DNA of 64,000 nucleotides. Origin: Cellulomonas cellasea. Lineage in GTDB: Bacteria > Actinomycetota > Actinomycetes > Actinomycetales > Cellulomonadaceae. The notes under the pieces are model-generated. The model ran no database searches. It was not told the origin of the DNA and saw only the letters and a list, made by a program, of their open reading frames with translations. The position numbers were made by a program, and so were the translations under genes. The stretch lies in contig NZ_JAUDBQ010000002.1 in assembly GCF_030372105.1 (NCBI RefSeq), forward strand, positions 186,001-250,000. The letters run 5' to 3'. Of the stretch, positions 51,228 to 60,413 are shown one piece after another. Position 1 is the stretch's first letter, and each line of letters begins with the position of its first letter.

Positions 51228-52895
51228 GTGACTCGACGACTGACGTTCCTGACAGCCATCCTCGGCTGTCTCGCCCTCCTATTCGGATGGTCGATGGGCT
51301 TCGACGGCGCCGCCGCCGAACGCCTCCGCAAGGCCTCCCCGGACGCCTCCCGCACGGCGTCCTCCACCGACTCCGGGTCCGATGACGCCTCCGACGACGC
51401 GTCCCCCGACGCGGCGGCGCAGGCCGAGGACTCCCCCGAGGCCGCCGCGTCAGGGGGAGCAGCCGCCTCCTCGGACGCGCAGGCGAAGGACGAGCAGTGG
51501 CGCGGCTACTGGGTGGACAGCTTCAACGAGGGCATCTCCACCCCTGACGAGGTGCGCCAGATGGTCGCCGACGCCCAGGCCGTGGGCGCCAACGCGCTCG
51601 TCGTGCAGGTGGCCCGCTGGTTCGACTGCTTCTGCGACGACTCGACGCTCCCCCGCACCGACGCCGACCTCGACCCGGGGTACGACCCGCTCGAGGAGGT
51701 CGTGGACCAGGCCCACGCCGCAGGCCTCGAGGTGCACGCGTGGGTGAACTCCACCACGCTGTGGAGCCGCAGCACCCCGCCGGAGTCCCCTGACCACGTG
51801 TACAACACGAACGGCTTCTCGGCCTCGGGCTCCGACCGGTGGCTGAACAAGCGCAACGACGGCGTCGAGAAGATCGGCACCATGTCGTACATCGACCCCG
51901 CCAACCCGGCGGCCGTGGACTACCTGGTCGACGGCGTGGTCTCCATCGCGGAGAACTACGACATCGACGGCGTGAACCTCGACTACATCCGCTACCCGGA
52001 CGACTCCGCGAACACCAACGCGAACGACTGGGGCTACTCGGAGACCTCGCTGGCGCGCTTCGCCGCGGAGACCGGCCGCACCGACGTGCCGGCGCCCAAC
52101 GACCAGCAGTTCAGCGACTGGCGGCGCGAGCAGGTCACCAACATGGTCCGCAAGGTCTACGTCGGCCTGTACGAGAACGACCCGAGCGACCGGCTCAGCG
52201 TGAACGCGGTCACCTACGGCGACGGGCCGATCACCGTCGGCGCCTGGGAGTCCACCCAGCCGTACCTGGGCGTTCTGCAGGACTGGAAGGGCTGGCTGGA
52301 CGAGGGCATCGTCGACACCGTCATGACGATGAACTACAAGAGCCACTCCAGCACCAACTCGCTGCGCCGCTTCGACGAGTGGAACGCCGCGCTGCTGGAG
52401 TACCAGGCGGGCCGCCACGGGGTCGCCGGGCCGGGGCTGTACCTCAACGACGTCGCCGAGAACGTCGCCCAGGCACAGCGCGTCGACGACCTGGGGCTGG
52501 GCTGGAACGGCTACAGCTACGCCAACACCACCGAGGCGGCAGCCGACTCGAGTGACGTGGCCGTGGACCGCGCCGAGCGCGCCGCGCTGACCAGCGCGCT
52601 GCGCTCCGGGGTGTTCGCGGACGACGTCGCAGTGCCCGAGATGACCTGGAAGACCAGCCCGTCCACGGGCATGGTGTCCGGGACCGTCGACCTGCAGGGC
52701 GGCGGGCCGGTGGACGTCGTGCTGCAGGCGGACGGCGGCGAGCAGGTCGTCACCCGCACCGACGCCAGCGGGTGGTTCGGCGCCACCGGCCTCGAGCCCG
52801 GCACGTACACGGTGCGGGCGGGCGAGTCCGACGCGACGGTCCACGTCCAGAAGGGCGAGGTCGCCGAGGTGGGGCTCAATGCCGCAGGCGACTGA
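51228..52895 (+). CDS. exported GHL10 (glycoside-hydrolase-like 10) family protein
   Basis: A 555-residue exported protein. Residues 1-25 form a signal or anchor helix (FLTAILGCLALLFGW), then a roughly 60-residue Ser/Asp/Ala linker, then a GHL10/DUF187 TIM-barrel domain (WRGYWVDSFNEGISTPDEV, LVVQVARWFDCFC, GLEVHAWVNS, DGVNLDYIRYPDDSA, TVMTMNYKS), and a C-terminal carboxypeptidase-regulatory-like beta domain (VSGTVDLQGGG to EPGTYTVRAG). AGAAGGGGGAA precedes GTG 51228. The family's substrate is unproven; polysaccharide or peptidoglycan cleavage is plausible. Its 3' end overlaps the P-ATPase gene by 20 bp tail to tail. Confidence 0.88.
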   Translation: MTRRLTFLTAILGCLALLFGWSMGFDGAAAERLRKASPDASRTASSTDSGSDDASDDASPDAAAQAEDSPEAAASGGAAASSDAQAKDEQWRGYWVDSFNEGISTPDEVRQMVADAQAVGANALVVQVARWFDCFCDDSTLPRTDADLDPGYDPLEEVVDQAHAAGLEVHAWVNSTTLWSRSTPPESPDHVYNTNGFSASGSDRWLNKRNDGVEKIGTMSYIDPANPAAVDYLVDGVVSIAENYDIDGVNLDYIRYPDDSANTNANDWGYSETSLARFAAETGRTDVPAPNDQQFSDWRREQVTNMVRKVYVGLYENDPSDRLSVNAVTYGDGPITVGAWESTQPYLGVLQDWKGWLDEGIVDTVMTMNYKSHSSTNSLRRFDEWNAALLEYQAGRHGVAGPGLYLNDVAENVAQAQRVDDLGLGWNGYSYANTTEAAADSSDVAVDRAERAALTSALRSGVFADDVAVPEMTWKTSPSTGMVSGTVDLQGGGPVDVVLQADGGEQVVTRTDASGWFGATGLEPGTYTVRAGESDATVHVQKGEVAEVGLNAAGD

Positions 52896-55698
52896 CGGCC
52901 TTCCGCGCCTCCTCCACCCACAGCACGGCTGACGCCACCGCCACCGCGACGAGCCACTGGCCCCCGGTCAGCGCGGTGGTGGTGAAGAAGCCCTGCAGCG
53001 CCGGCGTCTGCACGACCAGCACCTGCAGCACCACGATCGCGGCCAGCGCGAGCCACAGCGCGCGGTTGGTGAACGTGGCGCGGGTGAAGACGCTGGCCTC
53101 GCGGCTGCGCACGTTCAGCAGGTTGAACACCTGCGAGAACACGAATGTGGTGAAGGCGAGGGTGCCCGCGGTGGTGGCGACATCGGCCTGGGGCTCGGGG
53201 CCGGGCGCCAGCTCCAGCACCGCCAGGGCGCCGATCGCCATCACGAGCGCGGACAGCGTGATGCGCAGGATGCGCGGCCCGGTGAGGATGCACTCGCCCA
53301 CCGCCCGCGGTGGGCGGCGCATCACCCCGGGGTCGGGCCGGTCCAGGCCCAGCGCCATCGCGGGCGGGCCGTCCATGATGATGTTGACCCACAGCACCTG
53401 CAGGGCGGTGAACGGCGCCCCGCCCGCGATCCCGACGGCGCCCGCGACGAGGAAGATCAGCACGAAGCCCCACGACGTGGCGATCTGGAAGCGCACGAAC
53501 TTCACGACGTTGTCGTAGATCCCGCGCCCCTCGCGCACGGCGGCGACGATCGTCGCGAAGTTGTCGTCGGTGAGGATCATCGACGCGGCGCCCTTGGAGA
53601 CCTCGGTGCCGGTGATCCCCATCGCGATGCCGATGTCGGCCTGCTTGAGCGCGGGGGCGTCGTTCACGCCGTCCCCGGTCATGGCCACCACCGAGCCGTC
53701 GGCGCGCAGCCCGTCGACCAGGCGGATCTTGTGCTCGGGGCTCACCCGGGCGATGACGCCGAAGCCGCGGGCGCGCTCGGCCAGCTGGGCGTCGTCGAGG
53801 TCGTCGAGCACCGCCCCGGAGACCGCCTCCCCCTCGATGCCCAGGTCGCGGGCGATCGCCGAGGCGGTGCCGACGTGGTCGCCGGTGATCATGTGCACGC
53901 TGATGCCGGCCTCGCGGGCCTCGGCGATCGCCGCGCGCGCCTCGGGGCGCGGCGGGTCGACGATCCCGACGAGGGCCAGCAGCGTCAGCCCGTCGACATG
54001 GCGGGCGAGGTCCTCGACGTCGAGCGAGCCGATGGCCTCGGGGTCGATCTCCGAGGCGGGCACGTCCCCTGCCGCGACGGCCATGCCGCGCAGCCCGCGG
54101 GAGCCGATCTGCTCGGTCAGCGCGGCGAGGCGCTCACGCTGCGCCGCGTCGAGCGGGACCTTCCCCGTCGGGGTGTCCAGCCACGCGCAGCGGGCCAGCA
54201 CCACGTCCGGCCCTCCCTTGACGAACAGCCGCGCGCCGCTCTCGCCCGGGACCAGCCCTTCTGCCCAGGCGGCCAGGGTCGCCTGGGCCTCAGCGTCCGC
54301 GGGAGCCTCGCCGCGCACGGCAGCCCACGGGTGGAACGTCGCCATGTACTTGCGGTCGGAGTCGAAGGGGATCTCGGCGACCCGGGGCCAGGCGCGGCGT
54401 GCGGCGTCCACGTCGAGCCCGCCCTTGGCGGCGAGCACCACGAGGGCGCCCTCGGTGGGGTCGCCCACCAGCTCGCCGTCGCGCAGCACCGCCTCGCTCG
54501 CCAGGGCCATGCCCAGCAGCGCGCGGCGCACGTCCGGCGCGGGGCCCTCGCCCGTCACCTCGAGCGTGCCGTCGGTGGAGTAGCCCTCCCCCGTCACCTC
54601 GAAGAGCCGCTGCCCGGCGAACAGCTCGCGCGCCGTCATCTGGTTGAGGGTCAGCGTGCCGGTCTTGTCGGTTGCGATGTGCGCGGTCGAGCCGAGCGTC
54701 TCCACGGAGGACAGCCGCTTGAGGATCGCGCCCTGCCGCGCGAGCCGCCCCGCGCCCATCGCGAGGGTGAAGGTGACGACGGCCGTCAACCCCTCGGGGA
54801 TCGTCGCGACGGCCAGCGCCACAGCCGTCAGGAACAGGTCGGCGGGCGCCACGCCCCGCAGCAGGCCGAGCGCGAAGACGATGACGATGACGACGCCGGC
54901 GATGATGCTGAGGAACTTGGCGAGCTGCGCGATCTGCCGTTGCAGCGGCGTGGTCTCGCGCCCGGCCGAGCTGAGCAGCCCCGCGACGCGGCCGATCTCG
55001 GTGCGCATGCCGGTGGCCGTGACGAGCAGCGCGCCGCGCCCACGCGTGACGGCGGTGCTCATGTAGGCCATGTCAGTGCGGTCGCCGAGGCTCGCGGCAG
55101 GGTCGCCCAGCGCGGACACGTCCTTGCTGACCGGCGCCGACTCCCCGGTGAGGGCCGACTCCTGCACCTCCAGGCCCGCCGCCTCGATCAGCCGCCCGTC
55201 AGCCGGGACGACGTCGCCCGGCTCCAGCAGCACGACGTCCCCGGGCACGAGCCCGTCGGCCTCGACCTGCTCGACCCGCCCGTCCCGGCGCACTGTCGCG
55301 CGCGTGACGGTCATGTCCTGCAGCGCGCGGAGGCTGTTCTCGGCCCGGCGCTCCTGGACCAGGTTGAGGATCGCGTTGAAGACGACCACCACGAGGATGA
55401 CGATGGGCGTCTCGAGCTCACGGGACACCACCGCGCTGACCACCGCCGCGGCCAGCAGCACGAGCGTCATCGGCTCGACCAGGAGGGCCAGGACCTTGCG
55501 CCACGCCGGCGTCGGGGGCGCCTGCTCGAGCTGGTTGGGGCCGACGTCCGCCAGCCGTCGGGCGATCTCGGGGCCGTCCAGGCCGCGTCGGGGATCGACG
55601 GCGAGCGCGGTCTTGGCCTCGTCGATCGTCAGGACGTGCCACGGACGGGCGTCCCCGGACGTCGTGTCGGCTGTGGCGATGGGGTCTGCCTCGGGCAT
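52876..55698 (-). CDS. calcium-type P-type ATPase (P2A/P2B-like)
   Basis: A 940-residue ion pump. The N-terminal domain is followed by helices 1-2, the actuator TGES motif, PEGL in helix 4 (residues 301-304), phosphorylation Asp344 in DKTGTLT, the nucleotide domain, TGDGVNDAPAL, and helices 5-10 with VNIIMDGPPAMALG. PEGL points to the calcium or mixed-cation P2 group rather than heavy-metal pumps (CPC absent). ATG 55698 is chosen over an upstream extension. It is convergent with, and overlaps, the GHL10 gene. Confidence 0.93.
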   Translation of the reverse strand: MPEADPIATADTTSGDARPWHVLTIDEAKTALAVDPRRGLDGPEIARRLADVGPNQLEQAPPTPAWRKVLALLVEPMTLVLLAAAVVSAVVSRELETPIVILVVVVFNAILNLVQERRAENSLRALQDMTVTRATVRRDGRVEQVEADGLVPGDVVLLEPGDVVPADGRLIEAAGLEVQESALTGESAPVSKDVSALGDPAASLGDRTDMAYMSTAVTRGRGALLVTATGMRTEIGRVAGLLSSAGRETTPLQRQIAQLAKFLSIIAGVVIVIVFALGLLRGVAPADLFLTAVALAVATIPEGLTAVVTFTLAMGAGRLARQGAILKRLSSVETLGSTAHIATDKTGTLTLNQMTARELFAGQRLFEVTGEGYSTDGTLEVTGEGPAPDVRRALLGMALASEAVLRDGELVGDPTEGALVVLAAKGGLDVDAARRAWPRVAEIPFDSDRKYMATFHPWAAVRGEAPADAEAQATLAAWAEGLVPGESGARLFVKGGPDVVLARCAWLDTPTGKVPLDAAQRERLAALTEQIGSRGLRGMAVAAGDVPASEIDPEAIGSLDVEDLARHVDGLTLLALVGIVDPPRPEARAAIAEAREAGISVHMITGDHVGTASAIARDLGIEGEAVSGAVLDDLDDAQLAERARGFGVIARVSPEHKIRLVDGLRADGSVVAMTGDGVNDAPALKQADIGIAMGITGTEVSKGAASMILTDDNFATIVAAVREGRGIYDNVVKFVRFQIATSWGFVLIFLVAGAVGIAGGAPFTALQVLWVNIIMDGPPAMALGLDRPDPGVMRRPPRAVGECILTGPRILRITLSALVMAIGALAVLELAPGPEPQADVATTAGTLAFTTFVFSQVFNLLNVRSREASVFTRATFTNRALWLALAAIVVLQVLVVQTPALQGFFTTTALTGGQWLVAVAVASAVLWVEEARKAVSRLRH

Positions 55699-55904
55699 CT
55701 GCCCATCCTCGCATCGCGCCTCGTCGCACGCGGACCCGGCGCCGCGCCGCGGGACGACGGCCCGGCCACCGGTCGCCGCGCGCAGTCGCCGTGCGTAGCG
55801 TGGTGGGGTCCATTCGGACACGGGTGGACGAGCCGAGAGCGCGGCCTCGGACCCTGCGGTTGTCCCGGCGGCCTCGGCTCCCGCACTCCTGAGGAGGCCG
55901 GCTG

Positions 55905-56543
55905 ATGAGCACCCCGATGGACCCCCACGACCAGCCACCCGCCTACCGGCCAGAGCCCCACGGCTCCAGCGCGGCGCGCATCGGCGACGCGGTGGTGGAG
56001 CGCGAGCGGGAGCGGTTCGGCGGCGTCAAGGTGGGCTCCGCGTTCTTCGGATGGCTCACCGCGACGGGCACGGTCGTGCTGCTGACCGCCATCGTGGCGG
56101 CGGTGGGCATCGCGATCGGCGCGGCCAGCAACACCGACATCGACGCGGCGACGGACCAGGCCGCCGCCGATCCGACGACCGTCGGGATCGTCTCCGGCAT
56201 CCTCCTGCTGCTGGTCGTCCTGGTGGCCTACTACTGCGGCGGGTACGTGGCCGGGCGGATGGCGCGCTTCAACGGCGCGCGGCAGGGCGTCGCCGTGTGG
56301 CTGTGGGCCGTGGTGCTGTCGGTGGCGGTGGCCGTCCTCACGGCGATCGCCGGCGCCCGCTACAACGTGCTGGCGGAGCTGAATGGCGTTCCGACGGTGC
56401 CACTGGACGAGGGCTCCCTCACGTTCGCGGGGGTGGTCGCACTGGTCGTGATCGCGGTGGCGAGCCTGGTGGGCTCGGTGCTGGGCGGCATGGGAGGCAT
56501 GCGGTTCCACCGCAGGGTGGACCGGTTCGGCTTCAGCCGCTGA
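55905..56543 (+). CDS. YrzE-like (TIGR04086-type) membrane protein
   Basis: A 212-residue protein: a Pro/Glu-rich cytoplasmic N-terminus of about 45 residues and four membrane helices (LTATGTVVLLTAIVAAVG, GIVSGILLLLVVLVAYYCGG, GVAVWLWAVVLSVAVAVL, FAGVVALVVIAVASLVGSVL). GAGGAGG lies 8 nt before the ATG. The family is common and unassigned. It is divergent from the P-ATPase and its stop lies just before the CstR operator. Confidence 0.75.
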   Translation: MSTPMDPHDQPPAYRPEPHGSSAARIGDAVVERERERFGGVKVGSAFFGWLTATGTVVLLTAIVAAVGIAIGAASNTDIDAATDQAAADPTTVGIVSGILLLLVVLVAYYCGGYVAGRMARFNGARQGVAVWLWAVVLSVAVAVLTAIAGARYNVLAELNGVPTVPLDEGSLTFAGVVALVVIAVASLVGSVLGGMGGMRFHRRVDRFGFSR

Positions 56544-56549
56544 CCAACC

Positions 56550-56567
56550 TATACCCCCGGGGGTATA
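56550..56567. promoter_or_regulatory. CstR/CsoR-type operator O1 over the promoter of the sulfur operon
   Basis: TATACCCCCGGGGGTATA is an 18-bp perfect palindrome of the CsoR/CstR operator class (A-T flanks, GC centre). It overlaps a -10-like TATAGT at 56566-56571, and the CoA-disulfide reductase GTG lies just seven bases past that box, so transcription may start on the start codon. A CstR-type repressor is encoded at the end of the same operon. Confidence 0.85.
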
Positions 56568-56577
56568 TAGTCGGGGT

Positions 56578-58371
56578 GTGGACCAGCACCTGACCCCCCG
56601 CACCACCCCCGTCACCGACGGCGCCGCCGCCCGCCGGATCGTCATCGTCGGCGGTGTCGCTGGCGGCATGAGCGCCGCCGCCCGCGCCCGCCGCAACGAC
56701 GAGCGCGCCGAGATCATCGTGCTCGAGAAGTCTGAGCACGTGTCGTTCGCGAACTGCGGCCTGCCGTACCACCTGTCCGGCGAGATCGAGCGCCGCGACG
56801 ACCTGCTGCTGCACACGCCCCAGTCGCTCGCGCGCGCCCTCGACCTCGACGTCCGGACCCGCCACGAGGTCGTGGCCGTGGACCCCGCGGCCCAGGCCGT
56901 CACCGTCCGCGGCCCGCACGGCGAGCACCAGATCGGCTACGACGCGCTGCTGCTCGCGCCGGGCGGCGTCGCCGTGCGGCCCCCGATCGACGGCCTCGAC
57001 CACCCCGCCGTGCACACCCTGCGGACCATCCCGGACGTCGACGCGCTGCGCGCCGAGGTCGACCGGATCACCTCCGCGCAGACCCCGGGCGCCGCCCCGC
57101 GCGCCGTCGTGGTGGGCGCCGGGTTCATTGGCCTCGAGGCTGTGGAGGCGCTCACCGCACGCGGGGTGCGCGTCGACCTGGTGGAACTGGCCGACCAGGT
57201 GCTGCCCCCGCTCGACGCCGAGCTCGCGCCGCTGCTGGCCGACGAGCTCGCGGATCACGGCGTCGGCCTGCACCTCGGCGTCTCGGCCCAGTCGGTCCAC
57301 CCCGCCGCCGACAGCCACCGCGTCACCGTGGCCCTGTCCGACGGCACGCGGCTCGCCGCCGACCTCGTCGTGGTCAACGTCGGGGTGCGCCCCGCCGGCG
57401 ACCTCGCCCGCGAGGCGGGCCTCGACACCGGCCCCACCGGCGCCATCACAGTCGACGCGGACCAGCGCACCTCCGACCCGCACATCTGGGCCGTGGGCGA
57501 CGCGGTCGAGGTGGTGCACGCCGTCACCGGCGCCGTCGGGCCCGTCCCGCTGGCCGGCCCGGCCAACCGCCAAGGCCGCCGCGCCGCCGACTCCATGACC
57601 GGGCGCCGCACCACCCCGCAGGCCACAGTGCTCGGAACCGCCATCGTGCGCGTCTTCGGCCTCACCGCAGCCGTCACCGGCGCCAGCCAGGCCACGCTGC
57701 GCCAGGCGGGCATCGCGCATGAGGTGGTGCACCTGCACCCCGCGCACCACGCCGGCTACTACCCCGGCGCCGAGACGATGCACCTGACGGCGTCCTTCGC
57801 GCCCGACGGCCGCCTGCTGGGCGCCCAGGCCGTGGGCCGGTCCGGGGTGGACAAGCGCATCGACGTGCTCGCCACCGCGCTGCGCGCCGAGATGACAGCA
57901 GACGACCTGGCCGAGCTCGAGCTCGCCTACGCCCCGCCGTACGGCTCCGCCAAGGACCCGGTGAACATGCTGGGATTCGTGGCGCAGAACGTGCTCAGCG
58001 GCGCCATGCCGCAGTGGCAGGCCTGGGACCTCGACGAGGCGCTGCGCACCAGCCTGGTGCTGGACGTGCGCTCCGCCGCGGAGTTCGCGGCCGGCCACCT
58101 GGACGGCGCCCTGAACATCCCGCACACCGAGCTGCGCGCCCGCCTGGACGAGGTGCTCGAGGCCGCCGACGGCCGCCCGGTGAAGGTGCACTGCGCCAGC
58201 GGCGTCCGCTCCTACCTGGCCACCCGCATCCTGCTGGCGCATGGCGTGGACGCCAGCAACCTCTCGGGAGGCTGGCTCACGCTCGAGGCGGCCCGCCGAT
58301 CCGCGGCGCCCCTTCCCCCGCGCGTGCCCACGACCCGCGTGACCAACGACCCGGAGGAGATCCCCGCATGA
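56578..58371 (+). CDS. FAD-dependent CoA-disulfide reductase fused to rhodanese domain
   Basis: A 597-residue two-domain enzyme of the CoADR-RHD type, which reduces CoA-persulfides or CoA disulfide and handles sulfane sulfur. The FAD motif IVGGVAGGMSAA (about 23-34), active-site Cys60 in SFANCGLPY, NAD(P) motif VVGAGFIGLEAVEAL, and a C-terminal rhodanese domain with the persulfide-carrying Cys539 in CASGVR are visible. GTG 56578 lies right after the operator, with no clear Shine-Dalgarno. The stop overlaps the rhodanese gene (ATGA). Confidence 0.93.
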   Translation: MDQHLTPRTTPVTDGAAARRIVIVGGVAGGMSAAARARRNDERAEIIVLEKSEHVSFANCGLPYHLSGEIERRDDLLLHTPQSLARALDLDVRTRHEVVAVDPAAQAVTVRGPHGEHQIGYDALLLAPGGVAVRPPIDGLDHPAVHTLRTIPDVDALRAEVDRITSAQTPGAAPRAVVVGAGFIGLEAVEALTARGVRVDLVELADQVLPPLDAELAPLLADELADHGVGLHLGVSAQSVHPAADSHRVTVALSDGTRLAADLVVVNVGVRPAGDLAREAGLDTGPTGAITVDADQRTSDPHIWAVGDAVEVVHAVTGAVGPVPLAGPANRQGRRAADSMTGRRTTPQATVLGTAIVRVFGLTAAVTGASQATLRQAGIAHEVVHLHPAHHAGYYPGAETMHLTASFAPDGRLLGAQAVGRSGVDKRIDVLATALRAEMTADDLAELELAYAPPYGSAKDPVNMLGFVAQNVLSGAMPQWQAWDLDEALRTSLVLDVRSAAEFAAGHLDGALNIPHTELRARLDEVLEAADGRPVKVHCASGVRSYLATRILLAHGVDASNLSGGWLTLEAARRSAAPLPPRVPTTRVTNDPEEIPA

Positions 58372-58748
58372 GCACCACCCCCACGCCGTCCCTCGGCGAC
58401 CGCATGCGCAGGCTGCTGGGCCGCGGCCAGGACGACGGGCGGCTGCGCGCGACAGTGGACGCCGCCCGGGCGCTCGAGCTCGTGCGAGACGGCGCGTCGC
58501 TGGTCGACGTCCGCGAGCGCGGCGAGTGGCGTGCCGGCCACGCCCCGCAGGCCGTGCACATCCCCCTGGCCGAGATCGACAAGGCCGCGCAACGCGTCGC
58601 CAAGGGCCGGCCCGTCGTCGTGATGTGCGCCAGCGGGATGCGCTCGCGCACCGGCGCGAAGCGGCTGCGCGCCCTCGGCCTGGACGCGACGAGTCTCTCG
58701 GGCGGCATCGGCGCCTGGCAGGCCGCGGGCGGCGCCGTGCGGCGCTGA
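58368..58748 (+). CDS. single-domain rhodanese
   Basis: A 126-residue sulfurtransferase: short basic N-terminus, LVDVRERGEWRAGHAPQAVHIPL, active Cys87 in VMCASGMRS, and LSGGIGAWQAAGG. It overlaps the CoADR-RHD gene by 4 bp. In the operon it probably moves sulfane sulfur between low-molecular-weight persulfides and the reductase. Confidence 0.93.
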   Translation: MSTTPTPSLGDRMRRLLGRGQDDGRLRATVDAARALELVRDGASLVDVRERGEWRAGHAPQAVHIPLAEIDKAAQRVAKGRPVVVMCASGMRSRTGAKRLRALGLDATSLSGGIGAWQAAGGAVRR

Positions 58749-58796
58749 CTCCCCCACACCTCACCACCACACCCACCCCGTTTGAAGGAGTTCCCC

Positions 58797-58916
58797 ATGT
58801 GCTTCCCCGTTCCCTGCGCCACCTGCGGCAAGACGACCTGGGACGGCTGCGGCCTGCATGTCGACGACGTGATGTCGCAGGTCGCCGCCGATCAGCGGTG
58901 CACGTGCCGCCGCTGA
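58797..58916 (+). CDS. 39-residue cysteine-rich small protein
   Basis: A very short gene with GAAGGAG 6 nt before its ATG. The sequence has six cysteines (MCFPVPCATCGKTTWDGCG then QRCTC), in a CxxC and a CTC pair that could bind zinc or carry persulfide. Related tiny Cys-rich proteins occur beside rhodaneses in actinobacteria as far as I recall. Position inside the operon argues for a sulfur-handling role, which is inference. Confidence 0.75.
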   Translation: MCFPVPCATCGKTTWDGCGLHVDDVMSQVAADQRCTCRR

Positions 58917-58966
58917 GCAGCGCCCACGACAAGGCGGCGCCGGGCCCTGCCGCGGCGCCACCCACC

Positions 58967-58984
58967 GATACCCAGCGGGGTATC
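58967..58984. promoter_or_regulatory. CstR/CsoR-type operator O2 before the repressor gene
   Basis: GATACCCAGCGGGGTATC has perfect 7-bp arms GATACCC/GGGTATC around an AGCG centre, the same design as O1 at 56550-56567. It lies 30 bp before the repressor ATG; TATCGT at 58981-58986 could be its -10 box. This suggests autoregulation from an internal promoter. Confidence 0.8.
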
Positions 58985-59014
58985 GTGCCCAGCAGTCACC
59001 GAGGAGGAACCGGC

Positions 59015-59281
59015 ATGGAGCTCGACAGGGACGAGATGGCCAAGGTCAGCAACCGGCTCAAGCGCGCCCAAGGGCAGCTCAACGCCGTGGTGCGGATGCT
59101 CGACGAGGGCCGGGACTGCGAGGACGTCGTCACCCAGCTCTCGGCCGTGTCCCGCGCCCTGGACCGCGCCGGGTTCGCGATCATCGCCTCGGGCATGCGG
59201 CAGTGCATGACGAAGTCCGACGAGGGCGAGCAGACGCTGGACGTGCAGAAGCTCGAGAAGCTCTTCCTCTCGCTGGCCTGA
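59015..59281 (+). CDS. cstR: CstR-type (CsoR family) persulfide-sensing repressor
   Basis: An 88-residue all-helical CsoR/RcnR-family repressor: LKRAQGQLNAVVRMLDEGRDCEDVV, then IIASGMRQCM. Cys35 and Cys64 are 29 apart, as in CstR and CsoR. The copper ligand histidine four residues before the second Cys in CsoR is Gly60 here, which points to persulfide sensing (CstR) rather than copper. GAGGAGG lies just before the ATG. Operators of matching symmetry lie before the operon and before this gene. Confidence 0.9.
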   Translation: MELDRDEMAKVSNRLKRAQGQLNAVVRMLDEGRDCEDVVTQLSAVSRALDRAGFAIIASGMRQCMTKSDEGEQTLDVQKLEKLFLSLA

Positions 59282-59288
59282 CTGCGCC

Positions 59289-60413
59289 CTAGGCCCGCTC
59301 GAGCAGGGTCAGCACCTCGTAGTGCGCCGTCTGGGGAAACATGTCGAGCACCTGCGCCTGGCGTGGGCGCAGCGACGGCATCAACGCGAGGTCGCGGGCC
59401 AGCGACCCCGCATGGCAGCTCGAGTACACGACGTGCCGCGCCGAGGACTCCTCGAGCCAGCGGCTGAGGTCCTCGCCGAGCCCGCGCCGGGGCGGGTTCA
59501 CCACGACCAGGTCGGGCACCCGCTCAGCCGCGAGCGCGAACGCCGTCGCGTCGCCGGCCTCGAACGTCACTCGGCCCAGGCCGGCCTCCTCCGCGCTGAG
59601 CCGCGCGCTCGCCACCGCCTCCACGCTGGTCTCGATGCCGACCACCTCGCGCTCGGGCTCGGCGACGTGCAGCGCGAAACCGCCGACCCCGCAGTACAGG
59701 TCCCACACCGAGGCGGGCGACTTCTCGGCCACCCAGGCGGCGGCCTGCCGGTAGAGCGCCGCGGCGACGCCGGTGTTCGTCTGGAAGAAGCTCTGCGGGC
59801 GCAGGTGCAGGTCGACGCCGCCCAGGCGCATCCGCAGCGTCTGCTGCTCGGTGAGCACGATCTCCCGCTCACCCTCGACCGTCGCCTTGTGCTCGGGGTG
59901 CAGGTTCACGGACACGACCGCCAGCCGCGGCAACGCCGACCGCAACCACGGCAGGTGCTTGCGGATCCGGGCGACGGACTCCTGCGACCGCAACACCAGC
60001 CGCAGCATGAGCTCGCCGTCGGGCGACTCGGTGACCAGCAGATACTTCAGCTCGCCGGTGCGCTGCGGCACGCTGTACGGCGCGATCGCGGCGCGCGCCA
60101 CGAACTCGGCCAGCACCGGGAACGCCGCCCGCAGTCCCGGGGTGTAGAGCCCGCACAAGCGCAGGTCCACCCCGCGCCCGTCGGCGTCGAGGATGCCCAG
60201 CGTCGGCTCGTGCGCGTCGCCGCCCACCACCAGCTTCGCCTTGTTGCGGAAGCCCGACTCGGGGCTGGCGACCGGGGGCAGCCACTGCAAGCCCTCGGGG
60301 CGCCCGAGGGCGAGGTCGGCGTGGCGCTGCTTGCCCGCGAGCTGCTCGGCGTACGGCTGCCCCATCAACGTGCAGGAGCGGCACTGCGCTGCGGCGAAGT
60401 ACGAGCAGTGCAT
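59289..60413 (-). CDS. rlmC: 23S rRNA (uracil-747-C5)-methyltransferase RlmC
   Basis: SAM- and [4Fe-4S]-dependent rRNA methyltransferase. The 374 residues begin MHCSYFAAAQCRSCTLM with three cluster cysteines and a fourth in LRLCGLY (about 87), the RlmC/RumB pattern. SAM motif DLYCGVGGFALHVA, VVNPPRRGLG and the catalytic Cys in VYSSCHAGSL follow. Convergent with cstR; 7 bp separate the stops. Confidence 0.94.
   Translation of the reverse strand: MHCSYFAAAQCRSCTLMGQPYAEQLAGKQRHADLALGRPEGLQWLPPVASPESGFRNKAKLVVGGDAHEPTLGILDADGRGVDLRLCGLYTPGLRAAFPVLAEFVARAAIAPYSVPQRTGELKYLLVTESPDGELMLRLVLRSQESVARIRKHLPWLRSALPRLAVVSVNLHPEHKATVEGEREIVLTEQQTLRMRLGGVDLHLRPQSFFQTNTGVAAALYRQAAAWVAEKSPASVWDLYCGVGGFALHVAEPEREVVGIETSVEAVASARLSAEEAGLGRVTFEAGDATAFALAAERVPDLVVVNPPRRGLGEDLSRWLEESSARHVVYSSCHAGSLARDLALMPSLRPRQAQVLDMFPQTAHYEVLTLLERA

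Follow-up and report, generated by a model that had tools for sequence, protein, structure and literature searches.

A putative CstR-type sulfane-sulfur operon of Cellulomonas cellasea, its cysteine-rich microprotein, and an apparent one-base-pair difference between copper and sulfur operators

A CsoR-family repressor encoded together with sulfurtransferases and a very small Cys-rich protein in Cellulomonas cellasea raises two questions: whether this locus responds to sulfane sulfur or to copper, and whether the small protein is part of the response. The locus lies in a 64,000-nucleotide stretch of contig NZ_JAUDBQ010000002.1 (positions 186,001 to 250,000; hereinafter the window, in which all coordinates below are given). 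The sequence and its ORFs place four genes on the + strand, in the single direction given in a preliminary description of this DNA: a predicted CoA-disulfide/CoA-persulfide reductase with a C-terminal rhodanese domain (hereinafter CoADR-rhodanese; 56578..58371, GTG start, 597 amino acids), a single-domain rhodanese (58368..58748, ATG start, 126 amino acids), a Cys-rich microprotein (58797..58916, ATG start, 39 amino acids) and a predicted CstR-type repressor of the CsoR family (59015..59281, ATG start, 88 amino acids). The start of the rhodanese gene overlaps the end of the CoADR-rhodanese gene (ATGA), and AAGGAG precedes the ATG of the microprotein gene. The two palindromes previously placed at the start of the operon and ahead of the repressor gene are found as well, namely operator 1, a perfect 18-bp palindrome TATACCCCCGGGGGTATA with a 16-bp core of the N6 type (56550..56567, just 5' of the GTG at 56578), and operator 2, GATACCCAGCGGGGTATC (58967..58984), the inverted repeat of which extends to CGATACCC/GGGTATCG (58966-58985).

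A Pfam search identifies Pyr_redox_2 (1.1e-57) and Rhodanese (7.4e-14) domains in CoADR-rhodanese and a Rhodanese domain (9.9e-17) in the 126-residue protein, which carries Cys87 in a CASGMRS loop. The best PDB match of CoADR-rhodanese is 3nta (1.5e-148), and the CoA-persulfide reductase 8a56 is matched at 7.5e-145. Both catalytic cysteines are kept, Cys60 (SFANCGLPY) and Cys539 (HCASGVRS), the counterparts of C42 and C508 that are used by the Enterococcus faecalis CoA-persulfide reductase (PMC9405070; this and the other articles are cited from the parts of their text examined). The protein scores below the cut-off of the NCBIfam CoA-disulfide reductase equivalog TIGR03385 (398.7 vs 578.8 bits), a model of 439 positions that does not include the rhodanese domain, and below those of two further CoA-disulfide reductase models, NF007123 (338.9/458) and NF010037 (294.5/394). 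Neither a persulfide dioxygenase (PDO) nor TauE is present among the four operon genes and the two flanking genes scanned.

The repressor matches Trns_repr_metal (PF02583, 2.1e-23, above the cut-off) and CsoR-family PDB chains. The position of the copper-ligand His is occupied by Gly60, in agreement with the preliminary description, and the Cys-His-Cys copper site is accordingly incomplete. Cys35 and Cys64 are also as described, but their 29-residue spacing, taken there as a mark of persulfide-sensing CstR, is shared by 58 of the 59 loci fetched with a copper CsoR (the remaining one is unparsed) and was rejected as evidence for persulfide sensing; because His-type repressor loci have the same spacing, only the missing His is diagnostic. 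The protein combines CsoR/DUF156 family membership, a Cys pair and the absence of the His with linked sulfurtransferase genes and palindromic operators containing G/C tracts, all as in the CstR type, and instead of the N7 operator and copper genes of a copper CsoR it has two N6 sites and genes of the sulfur type. Among the 51 distinct CsoR-family genes parsed at loci encoding homologs of the microprotein (one more is unparsed), the His is absent in 50. The only additional PF02583 match in the genome is encoded on contig 17 and keeps the His; its gene adjoins that of an HMA-containing P-type ATPase and has ATACCCCCTGGGGGTAC (N7, 17-bp) upstream.

A search with TATACCCCCGGGGGTATA allowing three mismatches finds only operator 1 itself in the window (0 expected), and the strict 16-bp pattern ATACC-N6-GGTAT occurs three times in the 3,807,857 bases of the genome (mirror control, 0), twice in the operon. 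The third site (G000:C32:84947) was considered as a further repressor target and rejected as a probable coincidence because ARAGORN places the 5' end of a tRNA-Gln gene across it. Relaxing the pattern to TACCC-N3-6-GGGTA yields no enrichment over the whole genome (7 forward matches vs 8 in the mirror control); by count, the strict pattern alone is informative here. The 6 kb surrounding the operon contain no N7 site. On contig 2, a P-type ATPase gene has the N7 site ATACCCTAGGGGGGTAT across the earliest codon at which it could start, and a further GTG is located about 20 nucleotides downstream; because this gene has a His-rich start, we take the site to be copper-type. A consensus scan of 56400-59400 detects no sigma-70-type promoter or terminator, and TATATA/TATAGT at 56564-56571 could be the -10 element of a promoter at operator 1. 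Operator 2 has a GTACC-N6-GGTAT counterpart in two congeners and none in three further loci checked. Taken together, the sequence features of the locus very probably define a CstR-type sulfane-sulfur stress operon.

The microprotein (MC-x4-C-x2-C-x4-W-x-GCG-x-H-x13-C-x-C) belongs to a family for which Pfam, NCBIfam, PHROGs and PADLOC (the latter searched with four members) contain no model, and no description was found in the openly licensed literature searched, including by family peptide strings. In an alignment of 79 members, M1, C2, C7, C10, W15, G17, C18, G19, H21 and C35 are invariant, and position 37 is occupied by Cys (64 members) or Gly (15 members). Comparison of these members with curated profiles yields weak, zinc-ribbon-like scores only (the best Pfam value is 0.0039, for RNA_pol_N, matched by 10 members), and neither a PDB profile search (best E-value 0.11) nor a Foldseek search with the 39-residue model (no match at E ≤ 10) reveals a convincing relative. 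The AlphaFold2 model built from the 79 sequences (pLDDT 85.9, pTM 0.53) contains two short strands and a helix (residues 22-26). With CxxC in the predicted hairpin and, after it, CxxH where the helix begins, the arrangement recalls a treble clef, which suggests that C7, C10, C18 and H21 form a small treble-clef-like zinc site; more speculatively, C2, C35 and, usually, C37 might be sulfur-reactive thiols outside that site.

The family is present (E ≤ 1e-3) in 69 of 99 genomes of relatives and in 36 of 296 genomes sampled from the phylum. Among the matches listed in a search of genome contigs, 584 of the 592 matched stretches were confirmed, and the best 80 were kept as named loci, a set that leans towards close relatives because the best-scoring loci were chosen. 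Within 3.5 kb of the microprotein, these 80 loci encode CstR-like repressors (36, a count that may include His-type repressors), rhodaneses (33), CoADR (20), thioredoxins (15), and PDO, TauE and DUF302 proteins (11 each). At least one core sulfur gene (CoADR, rhodanese, PDO or CstR) lies within this distance in 44 loci and none in 35, with one locus unparsed. The 748,746 bases of the 80 loci, several of which end early at contig ends, contain 81 N6 sites, compared to 0 in the mirror control and 0-1 in five Markov simulations. Upstream regions were read for 128 microprotein genes (85 from the named loci and 43 from the genome samples, with only identical copies removed), and an N6 operator is found within 130 nucleotides in 50 of these (37/85 and 13/43, respectively), 46 of them at 37-83 nucleotides; extending the search to 400 nucleotides increases the count to 56 of 128. 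Ahead of microprotein genes, the operator frequently ends in TAT-N2-T (with the T in 30 of 48), which is compatible with an overlapping -10 element. The microprotein thus represents a family of wide distribution, and many of its genes have an N6 operator of their own, a point absent from the preliminary description; a role as a co-regulated part of the sulfane-sulfur response can be inferred.

The principal alternative is that, in this genus, the operon simply happens to include a general zinc protein of 39 residues that does not belong to the regulon. The weak zinc-ribbon-like scores are in line with this possibility, as are the 15 of the 36 microprotein-bearing phylum-sample genomes that have no strong CstR match and the 78 of 128 microprotein genes that have no N6 site within 130 nucleotides, although some of the latter are accounted for by a position inside operons; the gene in the window, itself within the operon, has no N6 site within 400 nucleotides. 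Against it stand the empty mirror control and the 50 genes that do have a proximal N6 site, including 17 of the 35 in loci where no core sulfur gene lies closer than 3.5 kb (of the other 18, two have a site within 3.5 kb and 16 have none; for the 44 loci with a core sulfur gene, the respective numbers are 17 proximal, 23 within 3.5 kb and four without). Hence a general zinc protein unconnected to the regulon seems rather unlikely.

The second alternative is that the repressor senses copper or another metal and that the microprotein is a copper metallothionein comparable to MymT, the copper metallothionein under RicR. CsoR family membership, the G/C-tract palindromes and the small Cys-rich protein itself could be read in this way. 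Furthermore, the motif search for ScCsoR, the sulfane-sulfur repressor of Streptomyces coelicolor, was built with sites of Mycobacterium tuberculosis RicR and Geobacillus CsoR, and high similarity to the RicR sites was reported (PMC7533328). However, the repressor has Gly at the His position, the genome encodes a His-type CsoR elsewhere, next to HMA/P-type ATPase genes, and the microprotein follows CstR rather than copper CsoR. Among the relatives, CstR (E ≤ 1e-14) is found in 63 of 69 genomes with the microprotein vs six of 30 without it (p = 3.5e-12), whereas copper CsoR shows no association (60 of 69 vs 25 of 30; p = 0.75); the microprotein is encoded within 1.5 kb of 15 of 30 CstR loci vs none of 30 copper-CsoR loci. 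In the phylum sample, CstR (E ≤ 1e-16) is likewise found in 21 of 36 genomes with the microprotein vs 16 of 260 without it (p = 4e-13). A copper operon is therefore very unlikely, and the earlier reading of the locus as a sulfane-sulfur rather than a copper system gains support from the non-His sensor position, the sulfur-gene neighborhoods in many genera and the N6 operator spacing. Least probable of all is an operon that serves mainly in oxidative, nitroxyl or electrophile stress via the Cys pair, with sulfur species secondary, given that the adjoining enzymes are sulfur enzymes across many genera, even though agents other than sulfur species can cross-link dithiol repressors and nitroxyl cross-links the CstR of Staphylococcus aureus (PMC5480029).

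Operator spacing was compared across 116 repressor loci, each taken with flanks of about 1.5 kb, the best matches in the two genome samples (30 + 29 fetched with the copper CsoR and 30 + 27 with the repressor of the operon); sites were counted anywhere in the locus, with one outer half-site base left free (ATACC...GGTA[TC] or GTACC...GGTAT), and the loci were grouped by whether the copper-ligand His is kept. The 58 His-type (copper) loci comprise 49 with N7, none with N6 and nine with neither, and the 54 non-His loci 35 with N6, none with N7 and 19 with neither; the four unparsed loci include one N6, one N7 and two with neither. The association of spacing with the sensor residue among loci with a site is strong (Fisher p = 1.9e-24, uncorrected for shared ancestry). 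With the half-site TACCC...GGGTA, the copper set of the relatives shows one N4, the phylum CstR set one N5 as well as one N7, and the best 80 named microprotein loci a single N7 vs 88 N6. The lengths found here agree with the published operators of copper CsoR, TAC-N9-GTA (PMC3902906), and ScCsoR, ATACCn6GGTAT (PMC7533328).

Plasmids provide a further view. Sixteen annotated loci were picked by hand among the 60 + 60 matches listed (of 89 and 128 records, respectively). N7 is found in four of the eight His-type loci, one of which also has a degenerate N6-like site lacking G/C tracts, and seven of the eight have a heavy-metal P-type ATPase gene nearby. For the eight Gly-type loci, N6 is found in six and N7 in none, and all eight encode at least one of rhodanese, MBL-fold hydrolase, TauE, thioredoxin and DUF302 nearby. 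Both kinds of repressor, together with the microprotein, are carried by plasmid pRHL3 of Rhodococcus jostii RHA1. As a point against the reading proposed here, a copper locus on an M. gilvum plasmid has, next to its His-type repressor, a rhodanese-like gene preceded by an N7 site. Both kinds are annotated alike, as metal-sensitive regulators, in 15 of the 16 loci. The microprotein itself is often unannotated: among the 40 plasmid matches listed for it, 30 have no feature under the match, nine are hypothetical proteins and one record is unannotated (the PLSDB gene table is incomplete).

As judged from these sequences, copper and sulfur regulons appear to differ by a single base pair of operator length, and we propose that the N6 rather than N7 length prevents cross-talk between the repressor of the operon and the copper CsoR that the cell also encodes. 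The copper sensor RicR is a possible exception because its sites entered the same motif search as those of ScCsoR (PMC7533328). No statement of the one-base-pair rule was found in the openly licensed literature searched, and it may be in print elsewhere. If confirmed, it would separate the two types of regulons across the phylum, and it poses the question how paralogous CsoR-family tetramers measure DNA length.

By analogy with characterized homologs, the reduced repressor would sit on both operators and keep the operon and its own gene off; operator 2 would give the repressor gene its own regulated start, and its placement supports the self-regulation suggested earlier. Persulfide or polysulfide would then modify Cys35, with Cys64 taking part, and release the repressor. 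With NAD(P)H as the reductant, CoADR-rhodanese would convert CoA persulfide into H2S and CoA, the rhodanese domains would move sulfane sulfur, and the enzymes would lower CoA persulfide and related species. The operon itself appears to be of a known kind, to which a widely co-regulated, undescribed microprotein would be added. A broader proposal, to which we assign about even chances, is that the microprotein is a dedicated, previously undescribed zinc/thiol effector that buffers, carries or reports sulfane sulfur and in many cases is produced alone, under a CstR-controlled promoter of its own, and that actinobacteria insulate copper and sulfur paralogs by one base pair of operator spacing (N7 vs N6), so that regulons can be assigned from sequence alone.

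The enzymes and the repressor are close to known systems. In the cst-like operon of E. faecalis (CstR, RhdA, RhdB, CoAPR), a CstR-type repressor likewise governs a CoADR-rhodanese and rhodaneses, CoA-persulfide reductase being a CstR target; this operon comes from a different phylum, and the text examined mentions no Cys-rich microprotein (PMC9405070). The ScCsoR circuit of S. coelicolor (CsoR-like regulator, PDO, rhodanese, TauE) shares an actinobacterial sulfane-sulfur repressor with two Cys at 29-residue spacing, self-repression and the operator ATACC-N6-GGTAT; ScCsoR binds DNA containing this operator in EMSA and is released by polysulfide, through persulfide at Cys37 with the assistance of Cys66 (PMC7533328). 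That circuit employs a persulfide dioxygenase and a sulfite exporter, in place of which CoADR-rhodanese and the 39-residue protein are encoded here. The copper CsoR of Streptomyces lividans shares the family and the TAC/GTA inverted repeat around G/C tracts but recognizes TAC-N9-GTA (17-bp class) and has copper efflux targets, whereas the operators here are TAC-N8-GTA and the repressor lacks the His (PMC3902906). TTHA1953 of Thermus is also a CsoR-family regulator of sulfur genes, those of the sulfur-oxidation (Sox) pathway, with no NaHS response seen in the part of the report examined; its operator TACNNTACNNNNGTANNGTA, unlike those described here, has no continuous G/C tracts, and its spacing matters, given that adding or removing one base changed the affinity about 10- or 15-fold (PMC10318464). 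If these comparisons hold, an often-unannotated microprotein family joins the core genes of the sulfane-sulfur response.

The large P-type cation ATPase encoded upstream of the operon (window 52876-55938, minus strand; Cation_ATPase_N and Cation_ATPase_C domains) is apparently unrelated to it. Directly upstream of operator 1, which precedes the CoADR-rhodanese gene, lies a 212-aa ORF (window 55905-56543, plus strand) with many hydrophobic stretches, for which a Pfam scan yielded no matches above the cut-off.

Elsewhere in the C. cellasea genome (G000), a perfect 16-bp palindrome with the N6 spacing of the CstR/sulfur class, ATACCCCATGGGGTAT (G000:C32:84947-84962, equivalent to L003:1501-1516), overlaps a reverse-strand tRNA-Gln gene (L003:1436-1508) at the gene's 5' end, and probably reflects chance agreement with the acceptor stem. 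Three loci from the wider survey of the Cys-rich microprotein family (L101, L091 and L121) each carry two of its genes, of unequal lengths and each with a separate predicted N6 operator; in L101 and L091, the paired genes are divergent and a short distance apart.

One P-type ATPase gene of this genome, a likely copper-CsoR target that encodes a His-rich N-terminus, has a 17-bp palindrome of the copper CsoR class (N7; G000:C2:132842-132858, equivalent to L145:1500-1516) at its start. On a Mycolicibacterium gilvum plasmid (L272:3956-4566), such a copper-type N7 site lies upstream of a rhodanese-like gene, which is adjoined by a CsoR that retains the copper-ligand histidine.
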